Positions 6,171 to 26,905 of a DNA stretch of 36,081 bases are shown here, piece after piece. Origin of the DNA: a virus; the IMG/VR virus record IMGVR_UViG_3300021090_000071, positions 1 through 36,081 of that record; one strand, given 5' to 3'. The notes beneath the pieces were generated by a model. That model was not told where the DNA came from and did no database searches. It saw only the letters and a list, made by a program, of their open reading frames with translations. Both the position numbers and the translations under genes were made by a program. The first letter of the stretch is position 1. Every line of letters starts with the position of its first letter.

Positions 6171-6502
6171 AAATGCGGGTGCTTCAACGTTTCGATGGGA
6201 CTGTGATCTCGGCTCCGAACAAGGGGGAGTTTCAGGTGATTCTTCGGGACCTCACGGATACAAAACGTTCGGAGGAAAAGGCCATCATGAATCTCTGTGA
6301 CGTTTCGAAAAATGACCTGCATCTCGTTGCCCCCGGTGCGATTTTCGACTGGACGATTTACTGGCGCCCCCATCCGACGAAGGAGAGCGGGCAGAGTCTT
6401 TCAAAAATACGGTTCTCGCGGAAGCGTTGGACGAGAGCCGAAATTCAACAGATCAAGCAGAAGGCCCGCACGCTTGGAATTTGCTTTGGACTAAAACCGT
6501 GA
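6167..6502 (+). CDS. Conserved hypothetical protein
   Basis: A 111-residue protein starting at ATG 6167: MKMRVLQRFDGTVISAPNKG, then EFQVILRDLTDTKRSEEKAI, then VAPGAIFDWTIYWR and a basic C-terminal helix. The order of a beta-rich front with RDLTD, then PGAxFxWTI, then a basic tail matches a small family I have seen annotated as hypothetical in bacteria and phages. Function unknown. Confidence 0.72.
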   Translation: MKMRVLQRFDGTVISAPNKGEFQVILRDLTDTKRSEEKAIMNLCDVSKNDLHLVAPGAIFDWTIYWRPHPTKESGQSLSKIRFSRKRWTRAEIQQIKQKARTLGICFGLKP

Positions 6503-7753: not shown

Positions 7754-8164
7754 GTGAGCGAATACCACAAGATCGAAACACTCTACGAGCGCGACGACGC
7801 CACGCATCGGCTTAAACAGCCTCTCGTGTTCAAGAACCGCGTGTATGGAATCGTTAATCCGTGGGTCTTCACCGAGAAGATCGACGGCACAAATATCCGC
7901 TGCGCTTGGCATCTCGGGAAGGTGACGTTCGGTGGCAAAACGGACGCCGCACAAATTCACGCCGATCTCGTCAGATGGCTCTACGAGCACGTCACGCCCG
8001 AAACATGCCGCGTGGCGTTTGCAAACCACGCCGAAGAGCATCCGGTGGTTCTCTACGGCGAAGGGTACGGGGCGGGCATTCAGAAGGGTGGTGGCGATTA
8101 CTCGCCCGAGAAACGCCTAATTCTTTTCGACGTGCTCATCGCGGATGAGGCGGAACGTGGCTAG
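7754..8164 (+). CDS. RNA ligase (Rnl2-type), N-terminal part up to an in-frame TAG
   Basis: It starts at GTG 7754 after AAGGAGAAACC. Residues 37-44 are FTEKIDGT, the KxDG nucleotidyltransferase motif whose Lys takes the AMP; VLYGEGYGAG and LILFDVL follow as in RNA_ligase (PF09414) proteins. These enzymes seal RNA ends using ATP. A TAG at 8162-8164 ends the frame after 136 residues, but homologous sequence continues in the same frame to 8392. The family usually has two Trp at this point (WWL), so TGG to TAG is the simplest explanation. Truncated here, it lacks the late motifs. Confidence 0.85.
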   Translation: MSEYHKIETLYERDDATHRLKQPLVFKNRVYGIVNPWVFTEKIDGTNIRCAWHLGKVTFGGKTDAAQIHADLVRWLYEHVTPETCRVAFANHAEEHPVVLYGEGYGAGIQKGGGDYSPEKRLILFDVLIADEAERG

Positions 8165-8395: not shown

Positions 8396-8866
8396 ATGAG
8401 TAACATTTTCGTACACTCGCCACACCTTCCGGTTTTCGAATACGATGGAGCTTTCAAGTGTTTTGACTGCGGTGCGACATGGGGAGCGCTGCCGGATCAT
8501 CCGGAGATGCCTGCAACCTGTGTATCTCGTCGTGGTAAATCTCTCAGACTGGATTTCGAGTGTTTCAAAAGCGACGTAGAGGCGGGTCGAGCGGAGCATG
8601 TCGCTTTACCGGTTGTCCTTCGTGACGACAAGGATCGAACGAGAGCGGACATCGTTGCCGAAGCGATGGAGGAAGTCAGAAAAACCCATCTGGCATACGA
8701 TGTCGCCAAGGAAAAAGCCAACGCGGCGGTGAGTAATGTGAACGAAGCGCTTCTCAGCGCAAACCGGGCGCAGGTTGCGCTCGATACGGCCCTTACAGAA
8801 TTGAAAAACACTGCCCCCTACGGATCGAAGTGGAACACACCGAGAAAAGGAGAATCAGAATCATGA
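8396..8866 (+). CDS. Hypothetical protein with zinc knuckle and coiled coil
   Basis: A 156-residue protein. The N-terminus has FKCFDCGATWGALPDHPEMP with two further cysteines nearby (TCVSRR, FECF), a probable zinc site. Residues 80-145 are a long helix (RADIVAEAMEEVRKTHLAYD and onward), probably coiled coil. Its stop overlaps the Tas-like start (ATGA at 8863), so the two are translationally coupled. It could act with the array system, but no function is recognised. Confidence 0.7.
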   Translation: MSNIFVHSPHLPVFEYDGAFKCFDCGATWGALPDHPEMPATCVSRRGKSLRLDFECFKSDVEAGRAEHVALPVVLRDDKDRTRADIVAEAMEEVRKTHLAYDVAKEKANAAVSNVNEALLSANRAQVALDTALTELKNTAPYGSKWNTPRKGESES

Positions 8867-9744
8867 CCACAACCCTCGAAGAACCCGAAACCACTCACGT
8901 CGAAGACGATCTTGAAGCACCGCTCATTCCGCTCGCCAAGCTGAGGAAGGACCTCCAGAAGGCAGCGGAGACCCTTTCCCCGCACGAGGCCCGGTATCTG
9001 GTCAGCGTGTACTACCAGCTACAGGACCTCCGGATCATCCTGAACAATCAGGAGAAATCCAACATCAAGCGGGAGCGCCCGCACGCCGCGGTGAGCTTCT
9101 TCCTCAAGCAACTCAAGGCGGTCGAGCGTCAGGTGGCGCAGGTGCTCGACACCTACAGCGAGTCGAAGGAACTAGGGAGGTGGGTACGGCAGATTGTCGG
9201 CATTGGGCCGATCATTTCCGCGGGGCTGCTCGCGCACATCGACCTGAACACCATGCCGCACGTCTCGAACCTCTGGTCTTTCGCCGGGCTCAATCCCACG
9301 ATGAAGTGGGAGAAGGGACAGAAACGTCCTTACAACGAGAACCTCAAGGTCCTTTGCGCCGGGAAAATCGGGCAGAGCTTTGTCTACAACCAGAACCGTC
9401 CGAACGATATCTACGGGAAGGTGTACGCCAAGCGGAAGGAACTGGAGGTTCAGCGGAACGAAGCGGGGAATAACGCGGAGAAAGCTGCCGAGATTCTGCA
9501 AAAGAAACGGTTTGACAAGAAGACCGTCGCCTACCAGAACTACATCGCCGGGAAATTTCCGCCTGCGCACATCCACGCCCGAGCGCGCCGGTATGCCGTG
9601 AAGCTTTTCCTGAGCCACTATTGGGCCACAGGACGGGCCATGGCTGGACTTCCTGTGACGGAGCCGTACGCGATTGCCGTGTTGGGTCACTCTCCCGAGA
9701 GCAAGATCAATCCGCCGTATCCACCGAAGCCTGCTACCTCGTGA
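8863..9744 (+). CDS. Tas-like protein (IS110 C-terminal / Nop-like domain, no nuclease); TasA-like
   Basis: A 293-residue protein from ATG 8863 after AAAAGGAG. Residues 20-105 are helical with a coiled coil. Residues 106-175 match the Tnp_20 (IS110/IS116) C-terminal domain: VGIGPIISAGLLAHI at 112-126, WSFAGLNPT at 138-146, KGQKRPYNENLK at 151-162. A basic helix ARRYAVKLFLSHYW follows at 241-254. The IS110 N-terminal DEDD (RuvC-like) domain is absent, there is no HNH, and no insertion-sequence ends are seen. Its stop codon lies inside the first repeat of a dual-spacer array. Tas proteins of TIGR systems use a Nop-like domain related to IS110 to hold a dual-spacer guide RNA; the version without nuclease is TasA. 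Automatic annotation would probably say transposase. Confidence 0.82.
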   Translation: MTTTLEEPETTHVEDDLEAPLIPLAKLRKDLQKAAETLSPHEARYLVSVYYQLQDLRIILNNQEKSNIKRERPHAAVSFFLKQLKAVERQVAQVLDTYSESKELGRWVRQIVGIGPIISAGLLAHIDLNTMPHVSNLWSFAGLNPTMKWEKGQKRPYNENLKVLCAGKIGQSFVYNQNRPNDIYGKVYAKRKELEVQRNEAGNNAEKAAEILQKKRFDKKTVAYQNYIAGKFPPAHIHARARRYAVKLFLSHYWATGRAMAGLPVTEPYAIAVLGHSPESKINPPYPPKPATS

Positions 9745-10628
9745 AGTCCAAGCTGGATGTGTGAGCCAACTAAAGTGTGGAGTCCATCTATTGTGTGCGA
9801 ACCATTATTTCCGTATTTCCGTGTCACCCCACCCGGTGAGTGTGAGCCAAAATCGAGATGAATTCCATCGTCCACGGCGCGAGCCATTAGGCGTGAGTCA
9901 GGAAGCAGATGACAACCAAACTCTGCGTACGGGCCAGTTTTACCGGTGAAGACCACGACTCGTGTGCGAATCAGGATAATCTGTGGAACACCAAAATCTC
10001 GTGTATGGGTCAATACAAAGGTGAAACCCGAACCAGTCGTGCGAACCAACCGATTAGTGTAGTCCAGCTTTAGTGGTGTGAACCGTAGTAGTTGTGGAAA
10101 CCTGAGCCGGGAGTGTGAGTCAGAAGCGTCGTGAAGTCCATTGGAATACGTACGAGCCAACGTCTTCTTTGAATTCCACCCATCTGGTGCGAATCAGATT
10201 CCCTGTGGAGCCCCGTATAAAGGGTATGAGCCAGCCCACCGATGAACTCCAAACCTCCGGCGCGAGTTAGCGAACGATGTGAAACCCGAGATCCATGTAC
10301 GAGCCACCTTAAGCGTGAAATCCAAATATGGAGCGCGAGTCAACGTGATGGTGGATTCCAAATATTTAGCGCGAGTCAACAGCATTAAGTGAACTCCAAA
10401 CCGTACGTGCGAGTCCAGAGGGTTGAATGAAAACCACAGCCGTGCGAGTCAGGTATCAGGGCGCAATCCAGCGATCAAGTACGAGTCCAGCGAATTTGTG
10501 AACTCCATCAGGTAAGTGCGAGTCCAAAACTATCGTGAAATCCAGCCAACGAGTGCGGGTCACCAAACTTGTGAAAACCACTCAACAAGTACGAGCCACC
10601 AAAACTGAAAACCACAAAAGACGAGCAT
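9741..10628 (+). repeat. TIGR-like dual-spacer repeat array 1
   Basis: About 48 ten-base units alternate between type A (consensus GTGAANTCCA, also GTGAAAACCA) and type B (GTGCGAGYCA or GTACGAGCCA). Starts are mostly 18 or 19 bases apart, e.g. A 9741, B 9759, A 9777, B 9795, and A 10315, B 10333, A 10351, B 10369. Spacers are about 8-9 bases and all different, so a full A-B period is 36-37 bases, as in TIGR arrays. One pair near 9813-9830 is decayed. Two B units are adjacent at 9877 and 9891. The array begins inside the Tas-like stop codon and ends just before the ribosome site of the next gene, so it is probably co-transcribed with it. No protein frame survives. Confidence 0.85.
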
Positions 10629-10646: not shown

Positions 10647-10898
10647 ATGAAGTGGAAAGAGTGGAAGAACAGTTCGGGCTGGCTGGCCTTTAAGATATCT
10701 TTTTTCTACGATACGCTGGCAGCGCTTGGATTTTTCTTGGCCTTCAAGATGCTGATTCCTGCCTTACCGTGGTGGAGGTGTCTCCTCGGGGCGTTTTTTT
10801 CGGTGTGGGCGTCAAACATAGCCATGCGCAGTCGGTTCGAGATGACCCTCATCGAGCACGTGAACAAAGCGCTAGACAAGTATCTGAGCAAGCCCTAA
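10647..10898 (+). CDS. Small membrane protein between the two arrays
   Basis: An 83-residue protein starting at ATG 10647 after TTTAGGAGGACTGG. Two hydrophobic segments (residues about 17-37 and 40-57, FYDTLAALGFFLAFKMLIPA and CLLGAFFSVWASNIAM) suggest two transmembrane helices, followed by a short charged tail. No family recognised. It sits directly after array 1. Confidence 0.75.
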   Translation: MKWKEWKNSSGWLAFKISFFYDTLAALGFFLAFKMLIPALPWWRCLLGAFFSVWASNIAMRSRFEMTLIEHVNKALDKYLSKP

Positions 10899-10916: not shown

Positions 10917-11423
10917 ATGATGTCTTTGGTATTCGTGGACTGTGAGGCTTACGGGGGTGCTCCAAGCGTGGGGCGTCTGACGGAATTCGGGGCCGTGACG
11001 TATCCGAAGAAGGTTACCTTTCATGGGGTGCTGCTGTCTACGCGTCCCTCGCTGGCGAATCCGGCAGTCCCCGAGCGCGTCTCGGATATGTCCGAAGACC
11101 ACTACCACGAACTCGCATCGGGCGTGTTCTTTAGCTTCGATGCGTGGCTCCGGGAAAATACGACCGGGCGTCCGGTCTTCGTTTCGGACAATCCGGCCTT
11201 CGACTGGCAGTGGATCAACGACCTGTTCTGGAGGACCCTCGGGCGTAATCCCTTCGGTCACTCGGCCCGCAGGCTCGGAGACTTCTACGCCGGACTCGTA
11301 AACGATTTCTACAAGACGCAGAAGTGGAAGGATTTTCGAGTCACGAAGCATACGCACCACCCTGTCGATGACGCCATGGGAAATCTGGAAGCGTTCGAAC
11401 GTCTTCTCAAGGGGGAACGATGA
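10917..11423 (+). CDS. 3'-5' exonuclease, DEDDh type
   Basis: A 168-residue protein with the DEDDh fold motifs. Exo I is VFVDCEAYG with Asp and Glu at residues 8 and 10, followed by a conserved TEFGAVTY strand. Exo II is FVSDNPAFDWQWIN with Asp near residue 98. Exo III is HTHHPVDDAMGN with His and Asp near residues 146 and 151. Family members such as DnaQ epsilon, RNase T and oligoribonuclease remove 3' nucleotides using two metal ions. ATG 10917 is preceded by ACGGAGG, and ATG 10920 follows at once. Lying between the arrays, it could trim guide RNAs or serve the Tas-like protein; this is inference. Confidence 0.82.
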   Translation: MMSLVFVDCEAYGGAPSVGRLTEFGAVTYPKKVTFHGVLLSTRPSLANPAVPERVSDMSEDHYHELASGVFFSFDAWLRENTTGRPVFVSDNPAFDWQWINDLFWRTLGRNPFGHSARRLGDFYAGLVNDFYKTQKWKDFRVTKHTHHPVDDAMGNLEAFERLLKGER

Positions 11424-11473: not shown

Positions 11474-11695
11474 ATGATCCCCGACGAGTGGTACGACCGG
11501 TTCGAATGTCTGGCGAGGGAACTGGCGTGTGAGAGAGTGTATCTGGAGTCGCACAGCTATACTCACATAACCCGGTTTGACACCGCCGCGGTTCCCGGTT
11601 ACGTGTATGCGCCGTGGGTTCCTTTCTACGTTAACGGTAGAGAAGCGAAAGAAGCGTGGTCTGTGTTGTTTAGTATTGCGGGTTGTACGGCCTGA
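11474..11695 (+). CDS. Hypothetical protein before array 2
   Basis: A 73-residue product: MIPDEWYDRFECLARELACE, then RVYLESHSYTHITRFD and PGYVYAPWVPFYVNG. It has no motif I recognise. The final codons overlap the first, imperfect unit of array 2 (about 11690). The ribosome site is weak, so the start is less certain. Confidence 0.6.
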   Translation: MIPDEWYDRFECLARELACERVYLESHSYTHITRFDTAAVPGYVYAPWVPFYVNGREAKEAWSVLFSIAGCTA

Positions 11696-12147
11696 ACCAT
11701 CCAATGTGTGAAAACCATAGACCCGGTGTGAGCCATCCGGAGAGTGAAGTCCAAAATCAATGAGCGAAATTCCTGACAACCTGTACGAGCGATTCATGAA
11801 ATATTTGATAAGCTCGCACGAGTCATTCAAAAGGTGAAACCCACGCTTCAAGTACGAGTCATTCAAACGGTGAAATCCATTCGTTCAGTATGAGCCAACC
11901 CCTATCGTGAATCTCCCTTGTACGAACCGAGGTAGCCAGTGTACTCCTGTCAAGGCGCGTGAGACAATATACAGGTGAAACCCACAGGAGTTTGTTCGAG
12001 CCCATCAGGACGTAAGCCAAATCCGAAGCGAAATCCCGGCTGTGTGTGCGAGTCAGGTCAATAGCGAACCCCAACTCATTTGTACGAGCCAACGGTTAAT
12101 GTGAAAAACCATCTGTCGAGTGCGAGCCATTAGTCGGGTGAAGCCCA
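11690..12147 (+). repeat. TIGR-like dual-spacer repeat array 2
   Basis: About 25 units share the array 1 consensus. Type A occurs at 11708, 11744, 11834, 11870, 11975, 12101 and 12138, type B at 11726, 11816, 11852, 11888, 12046, 12082 and 12120. Spacing is mostly 18-19 bases with unrelated spacers. Units at 11764, 11796, 11920 and 12010 are degenerate or out of phase, so this array is more decayed than the first. It begins within the stop codon of the preceding gene and ends about 24 bases before the tRNA. The shared repeats imply one Tas protein could use both arrays. Confidence 0.8.
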
Positions 12148-12171: not shown

Positions 12172-12247
12172 CGGGGTGTAGCTCAGGGGGTAGAGCGCCT
12201 GCCTTGGGAGCAGGAAGTCGGCGGTTCGAGTCCGCCCACCCCGACCA
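12172..12247 (+). tRNA. tRNA-Pro (anticodon UGG)
   Basis: All four stems pair: acceptor CGGGGTG with CACCCCG, D stem GCTC with GAGC, anticodon stem CCTGC with GCAGG around loop CTTGGGA (anticodon TGG, then G37 as usual for Pro), and T stem GGCGG with CCGCC around TTCGAGT. The 3' CCA is encoded (12245-12247). It follows array 2 after a run of seven T, so RNase P cleavage here would also define the 3' end of an array transcript. Confidence 0.95.
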
Positions 12248-26398: not shown

Positions 26399-26905
26399 AT
26401 GGCTGAATGGAGATCGTTGTTCGGGTTTGAAGGGTATTACATGATATCGAACGAAGGACAAGTCATGCGAGTAGCGCCGGGAAGGCACGGAGGAACACGT
26501 CCCGGTTACGTTCTGCGTTCTCGTGTTGACCGTAAAGGGTATCATTCTGTGATGCCATGTGTGGATGGAAAAACAAAGGTGGTATCGCTTCATCGGGCTG
26601 TACTGCTTGCTTTCAAGGGGGAACCGCCGATTGTTGGCATGGAGGCCAATCACGAGGACGGCAATAAAGCAAATTGTCATCTCAATAATTTGAGTTGGGT
26701 GACAAATAGCGAAAACAAGAAACACGCGATGCGCACTGGTTTGCGTAAACGGCTTTTTTCTAAGGAAGACATTACGCAAATCAAGGCATGGTACGCATCG
26801 GGTAGGTTTTCGCAACAGGCCATTGCGGATTTCTATGGTGTAAGTCAGCGTCACATTTCCTTTATTGTGCGTGGAGATATCTACACTGAGGACACGTTTT
26901 CATGA
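26399..26905 (+). CDS. HNH homing endonuclease (NUMOD4-HNH-HTH)
   Basis: A 168-residue protein from ATG 26399 after CTAGGAGGG. Residues 1-25 are a NUMOD4-like start (MAEWRSLFGFEGYYMISNEG). Residues 57-100 carry the HNH core VVSLHRAVLLAFKG, then MEANHEDGNKANCHLNNLSW. The end is a DNA-binding helix-turn-helix (ITQIKAWYASGRFSQQAIAD ... GVSQRHISFI). It is a selfish free-standing endonuclease that cuts a site in related phages without it. The upstream gap contains TATACT and ACTATCC, so it may have its own promoter. Confidence 0.88.
   Translation: MAEWRSLFGFEGYYMISNEGQVMRVAPGRHGGTRPGYVLRSRVDRKGYHSVMPCVDGKTKVVSLHRAVLLAFKGEPPIVGMEANHEDGNKANCHLNNLSWVTNSENKKHAMRTGLRKRLFSKEDITQIKAWYASGRFSQQAIADFYGVSQRHISFIVRGDIYTEDTFS

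Follow-up and report, generated by a model that had tools for sequence, protein, structure and literature searches.

TIGR-Tas systems were published as a family in 2025 (Faure et al., 2025; PMC12045711). Those of the TIGR-TasA type, such as FpTIGR of Flavonifractor plautii, combine a nuclease-less Nop protein with an adjoining array in which repeats of about 10 nucleotides (nt), bearing box D and box C, alternate around short paired spacers with a 36-nt period. The window analyzed here, 36,081 bases comprising the whole of IMG/VR record IMGVR_UViG_3300021090_000071, carries homologs of tail sheath, tube and baseplate-hub proteins indicating a contractile-tailed phage, and contains a gene, tasA, followed by two such arrays. 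The locus is read as a TIGR-TasA system of this phage with two large degenerate arrays, a reading to which we assign a probability of about 0.82. It resembles FpTIGR in all of the above respects but differs in having two arrays with about 36 units in all where 5–15 are usual, in the degeneracy of its repeats, in the lack of any terminator-like site found after array 1 or array 2, and in an edge box C/D pair that itself changes between units, with compensation. TasH of Salicola phage CGphi29 and TasR of Thermoproteota (21kl and 9mty) share Nop homology with the phage protein and, as in SpTIGR, 8-nt spacers are common ground; these proteins, however, bear an N-terminal HNH or RuvC nuclease, whereas TasA here has none.

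The product of the open reading frame (ORF) at 8863–9744 is a Nop-domain protein of the Tas family. An earlier sequence-only reading of this DNA had described a 293-residue protein with the IS110 C-terminal domain alone, and this was confirmed, since the sole Pfam domain is Transposase_20 (residues 108–147, E = 3.6e-4, at the gathering cut-off) and the Pfam scan found no nuclease domain. Among solved structures, phmmer ranked TasR first (9mty, E 6e-16), followed by TasH (21kl, E 2e-12) and IS621 (4e-5), with the Nop homology to TasH and TasR spanning residues 48–286. The RuvC domain of TasR is absent from TasA, as seen from the alignment, which begins at TasR residue 119, past that domain. An AlphaFold2 (AF2) model made from an alignment with 34 relatives is all-helical, with a predicted local distance difference test score (pLDDT) of 91.8 and a predicted template modeling score (pTM) of 0.85. 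Compared with the PDB by Foldseek, the structural check that the sequence-only reading had proposed, its top 11 matches were all TasR (9mty) or TasH (9vzx, 9w04, 21kl), with E values down to 3e-8, and IS110-type recombinases came next. The earlier assignment to the nuclease-less TasA subtype is thus supported by both homology and predicted fold. PADLOC returned no match for the protein.

PHROG 4285, a ‘transposase’ family, also matches TasA (E 4e-44), and together with the Pfam label it would favor a relic of an IS110-family transposase lying beside an unrelated repeat tract. IS110 and IS621 bridge-RNA recombinases do share a related C-terminal RNA-binding fold, but they have a DEDD (RuvC-like) recombinase domain, found neither by Pfam nor in the AF2 model of TasA, and a single bridge RNA, which is likewise not present here. 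With TasR and TasH rather than IS621 as the nearest solved relatives, and with array and gene occurring together in nearly all relatives, a transposase relic is highly improbable. That PHROGs and some GenBank records call this protein a transposase means that such systems are hidden by annotation.

Both arrays were delimited by dynamic programming, with two 10-nt motifs chained in alternation. Array 1 gave 47 alternating motifs between 9741 and 10614 with a score of 485 bits, against 14 bits for the best segment elsewhere on the plus strand, 19 on the minus strand and at most 19 in Markov shuffles. The array of about 48 motifs that had been described as running from the tasA stop codon is therefore real, although it begins slightly upstream, at 9726; array 2, which that description did not include, is an addition. 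By comparison with the TasR system, where the loop repeat is A-rich and the edge repeat has an additional pair (PMC12045711), GTGAANNCCA is the loop repeat and GTGCGAGYCA the edge repeat. Both carry box D (UG) and box C (CCA), the edge in the form TG/TA..YCA with compensation. Across 22 loop repeats the box D G (position 3) is present in 22 and the T (position 2) in 21, and the CC of box C (positions 8 and 9) is found in all 22. The spacers had been described as 8–9 bases long, never repeating, with a period of 36–37; all 46 that were read in array 1 do differ (46% GC, compared with 54% in the whole window) and the period holds, and most are 8–9 nt long, but one spacer near 9805 measures 16 nt and a few units are damaged, as at 9877–9900, where two edges are separated by TTAG. 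A CRISPR-Cas identity was rejected, since the alternating repeats are 10 nt rather than 25–36 nt long and PADLOC did not recognize the protein.

Edge pairing in the TasR structure joins the 3′ half of one edge repeat to the 5′ half of the next (PMC12045711); as cleavage of the tigRNA falls within the edge, the partners come from two different edges. The same arrangement can be read in array 1: position 7 of each edge pairs with position 4 of the following one, and position 8 with position 3, in 46/46 cases (39 Watson-Crick), compared with 39/48 standard pairs (22 Watson-Crick) within one repeat and 35/44 (20 Watson-Crick) for edges two apart. Wherever position 7 is A, the next edge has T at position 4, and each A at position 3 has a T at position 8 of the preceding edge. 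When the order of the edges was shuffled 100,000 times, the observed number of Watson-Crick pairs was never reached (0/100,000, P<1e-5) and that of standard pairs was reached in a fraction of 1e-5. Array 2 pairs in 18/20 cases (P 0.002–0.003), including one A-T where C-G is the norm. Among relatives, position 8 forms Watson-Crick pairs with the next position 3 in 80/112 cases in L015 (44 expected) and 17/17 in L010 (6.3 expected), while the loop motif in these two loci displayed no comparable covariation; pooled over 107 loci, variable cells are paired in 77% of cases between neighbors versus 49% within a repeat. Faure et al. (2025) reported the edge pairing and showed that it covaries from one array to another; the covariation from unit to unit inside one array is the same constraint. 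It suggests that the guide unit runs from mid-edge to mid-edge and that selection acts on the processed guide; unit and processing site would therefore be readable from sequence alone, and this locus illustrates that guide units can be so delimited.

These pairs bear on whether the locus is decaying, with an intact tasA and arrays that are drifting remnants. Degeneracy of the repeats goes far beyond that seen in most relatives: loops are deleted, some spacers measure 16 nt and two edges are fused around TTAG. Identity at lags of 36 and 37 is 0.39–0.41 here as against 0.5–0.7 in most relatives. Neutral drift, however, would break the edge-to-edge pairs, which are kept throughout array 1 in both A-T and G-C forms, and the box D G and box C CC are invariant in the 22 loop repeats. 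Decay of this kind is thus quite unlikely. Assignment to TIGR-TasA rests on features that were each tested: the Tas fold, the dual-repeat array, box D/C, edge pairing and the absence of a nuclease. The sequence-only view of a phage TasA-type system was upheld on these grounds.

Relatives of TasA are numerous. A search of IMG/VR with the single protein found none, its peptide patterns being too narrow; a three-member alignment found 56, and an alignment of the clade found 308 in IMG/VR (80 kept) and 25 in GTDB genomes, so that the clade counts more than 300 members in phage data. Arrays with a period of 35–37 nt lie beside the gene in nearly all relatives inspected. Most of the nearest relatives are 47–53% identical to TasA, and L111, L112, L116–L119 and L123 have GTG-type repeats in common; the neighborhood is not conserved with the nearest relatives, save for one match to a HAD-type protein in L011. 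L015 (IMGVR_UViG_3300032156_000001, a 188-kb contig), whose protein is 59% identical to TasA in the best segment and 47% overall, has six arrays, with about 119 guides altogether, in a stretch of 13 kb (85.5–98.7 kb). Its arrays are interleaved with genes around a single tasA and are far above the usual 5–15 units. An unannotated TIGR-TasA locus was also found in Microcystis phage Mvi-JY20 (PP438412, XAI95461; L001:4462-4785), which has a cultured host. It has the edge ATGCGAGCC, the loop ACGAAACCC, a period of 36 and an array directly after the gene, as here, but only about 9 regular units with a terminator-like hairpin at the array end, and its protein is 30% identical. In two groups of related arrays (L115/L121/L122/L134 and L159/L160/L171/L177/L180) some guides are common and some differ, differences that represent gain, loss or exchange of whole units. 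The array of L086 contains two guides, GAAATAAC and GAAGTAAC, that are one base apart and have an identical second spacer (CACTGGTA), a pairing that would suit a target with two variants.

A further form of array occurs in mycobacteriophages. In 74 Mycobacterium phage records, all phages isolated on M. smegmatis and those opened being Fromanvirus, a gene annotated as transposase, helix-turn-helix (HTH) protein or hypothetical is 33% identical to part of TasA, and the noncoding stretch upstream of it contains five stem-loops (z = -4.7), each with two variable segments of about 9 nt between CCA, CGA..CCCA and CG. Seven of the phages were compared: their stems and boxes are conserved, the segments are hypervariable between close relatives, and the sharing of whole units is mosaic. 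These stem-loops match the stem-loop TIGR array of PMC12045711, and because that study cites a mycobacteriophage review among its phage sources they may already be in its tables.

By analogy with the described systems, both arrays would be transcribed as pre-tigRNAs and cut mid-edge to give guides of about 36 nt, each beginning with the 3′ half of an edge and ending with the 5′ half of the next, with spacer A, loop and spacer B in between; the edge halves would pair through box C/D and one further pair. A TasA dimer would then bind DNA at tandem spacer matches, a mode taken over from known TIGR-Tas systems (Faure et al., 2025; PMC12045711), and would most likely block transcription or replication of competing mobile elements in a common host. 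Type IV and V-M CRISPR systems, which interfere without cleavage, might share this outcome, the silencing of rivals without cutting, but they are not homologous to the present locus, and their repeats, the form of their guides and the chemistry of targeting are different. What nuclease-less TasA does and which targets it has in nature are named as open questions by Faure et al. (2025; PMC12045711).

The target form sought here, in which spacer A precedes the reverse complement of spacer B, was deduced from the 8-nt 3′ overhangs reported for TasR (PMC12045711). A lead on natural targets came from Acidobacteriaceae bacterium KBS 96, whose tasA prophage holds six guides (L081; identical in IMG/VR 2522125054_000001, L132). 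An exact search of the 6.7-Mb genome gave a single match, that of guide 2 with gap 0 at 6,329,962 (L185:1501-1516, KB906767.1; about 0.06 expected over all gaps), which falls 25 nt inside the gene of an excisionase/Cox-like regulator (phrog_66, E 3e-6; HTH_17). The gene belongs to an element of roughly 8 kb, at 6,324–6,332 kb, that also encodes an integrase, an XRE repressor, a replication-like protein, an HK97-type protease and a capsid, and guide 5 matches the replication-like gene of this element at 6,329,052, again with gap 0, all mismatches lying in the outermost two positions. Under the guide-5 rule, 4 of 1,610 clade guides match the 9.3-kb region, two of them from the resident six, compared with 0, 2, 0, 0 and 0 for shuffled pairs. 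By our own estimate, before correction for three lysogens, the joint probability of the two matches is about 1.4e-3 (0.056 x 0.0245) if any two mismatches are allowed, and about 7e-5 under the rule set after the match was seen. The element appears related to the tasA prophage because their capsids are 68% identical, and looks like a partly lost prophage or satellite; its capsid-family relatives gave no enrichment of guide matches. The KBS 96 matches hint at silencing of rivals, and in this one relative the targets would be genes of a rival prophage or satellite.

It is tentatively possible, although the odds are against it, that TasA arrays act in RNA-guided superinfection exclusion, with 8–9-nt guide pairs silencing early genes (excisionase/Cox, replication) of related prophages and satellites by DNA binding while the phage's own genome is spared. 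If so, the two arrays of this phage, with about 36 guides, would be a store of guides against rivals. As a lysogen with two co-resident elements, KBS 96, together with the mycobacteriophage arrays, makes the question of natural targets testable at the bench.

Several results weigh against reading the locus as a TIGR-TasA system directed at rival elements. The target lead is from one genome and its strict rule was fixed once the match had been seen, and the many degenerate repeats and broken units mean that part of the arrays may be dead. The paired-spacer search that the sequence-only reading had called for gave no support: 631 clade guides matched 1.2 Mb of related-phage DNA only at chance level, and 1,859 guides gave 8 exact matches in 2.58 Mb of such DNA versus 3, 10 and 6 in control orientations and 5–11 with shuffled partners. 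In Halomonas NO4 (2.35 of 4 Mb, 59%) a GC-rich guide had one exact gap-1 match, which lay within a transporter gene and was not convincing, two tests in Propionivibrio gave nothing above controls, and eight paired mycobacteriophage guide targets had no mycobacteriophage match among 50,697 phage genomes. The 30 window units, searched with at most 1 mismatch and gaps of 0–2, had no match in the phage's own 36 kb, and self-targets are thus absent from that sequence.

This last result bears also on the alternative that the system is functional but serves to regulate genes of the phage itself or fixed genes of its host, as a regulator or an aid to integration or recombination, and is not directed at rivals. 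A nuclease-less effector could tolerate chromosomal targets, and regulation or help to integrases was proposed by Faure et al. (2025; PMC12045711). Searches of the whole contigs of L015 (188 kb, 105 guides), L010 (68 kb) and L026 (94 kb), however, gave no self-matches above control orientations, and no window guide is common to any relative, unlike the expectation for a fixed target. Such a role is rather unlikely, if less so than decay.

Table 1. Coordinates of the tasA locus, the genes around its arrays and a mycobacteriophage array (positions in the window unless a locus is given).
Feature	Position	Strand	Remarks
tasA, 293-residue solo Nop-domain protein without RuvC, HNH or DEDD domain	8863..9744	+	Pfam, PHROG, phmmer, AF2, Foldseek
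TIGR array 1 (about 24 units, each made up of edge GTGCGAGYCA, an 8-9-nt spacer A, loop GTGAANNCCA and an 8-9-nt spacer B)	9726..10625	+	
Truncated 5′ edge-like GAAGCCT within the tasA 3′ end	9726..9732	+	Likewise at the tasA stop codon in relative L118
First loop repeat	9741..9750	+	Contains tasA stop codon TGA
First complete edge repeat GTGTGAGCCA	9759..9768	+	
83-residue ORF between the arrays	10647..10898	+	Not found near relatives
DnaQ/RNase_T-like DEDDh exonuclease between the arrays	10917..11423	+	Pfam E 0.01-0.02; PADLOC exonuclease effector model E 2.5e-12
TIGR array 2, about 12 units	11690..12147	+	Repeats of array 1, more degenerate
Array 2 edges	11726, 11783, 11816, 11852, 11888, 11920, 11957, 11994, 12010, 12046, 12082, 12120		
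tRNA-Pro(UGG)	12172..12247	+	24 nt past last loop repeat of array 2
Five-unit stem-loop TIGR array, Mycobacterium phage Marsha	L003:3525-3845		Few genes from immunity repressor

Of the genes between the two arrays (Table 1), the exonuclease is probably an ordinary phage gene; it was considered as an accessory of TasA and rejected, since it is not conserved with tasA and has no relative near other tasA genes. Elsewhere in the window, 7754–8164 encodes an N-terminal RNA ligase fragment (PF09414, E 2e-7), with the remainder of the ligase not in the same frame, and a free-standing NUMOD4-HNH homing-type endonuclease is encoded at 26399–26905, directly past the tail sheath gene.
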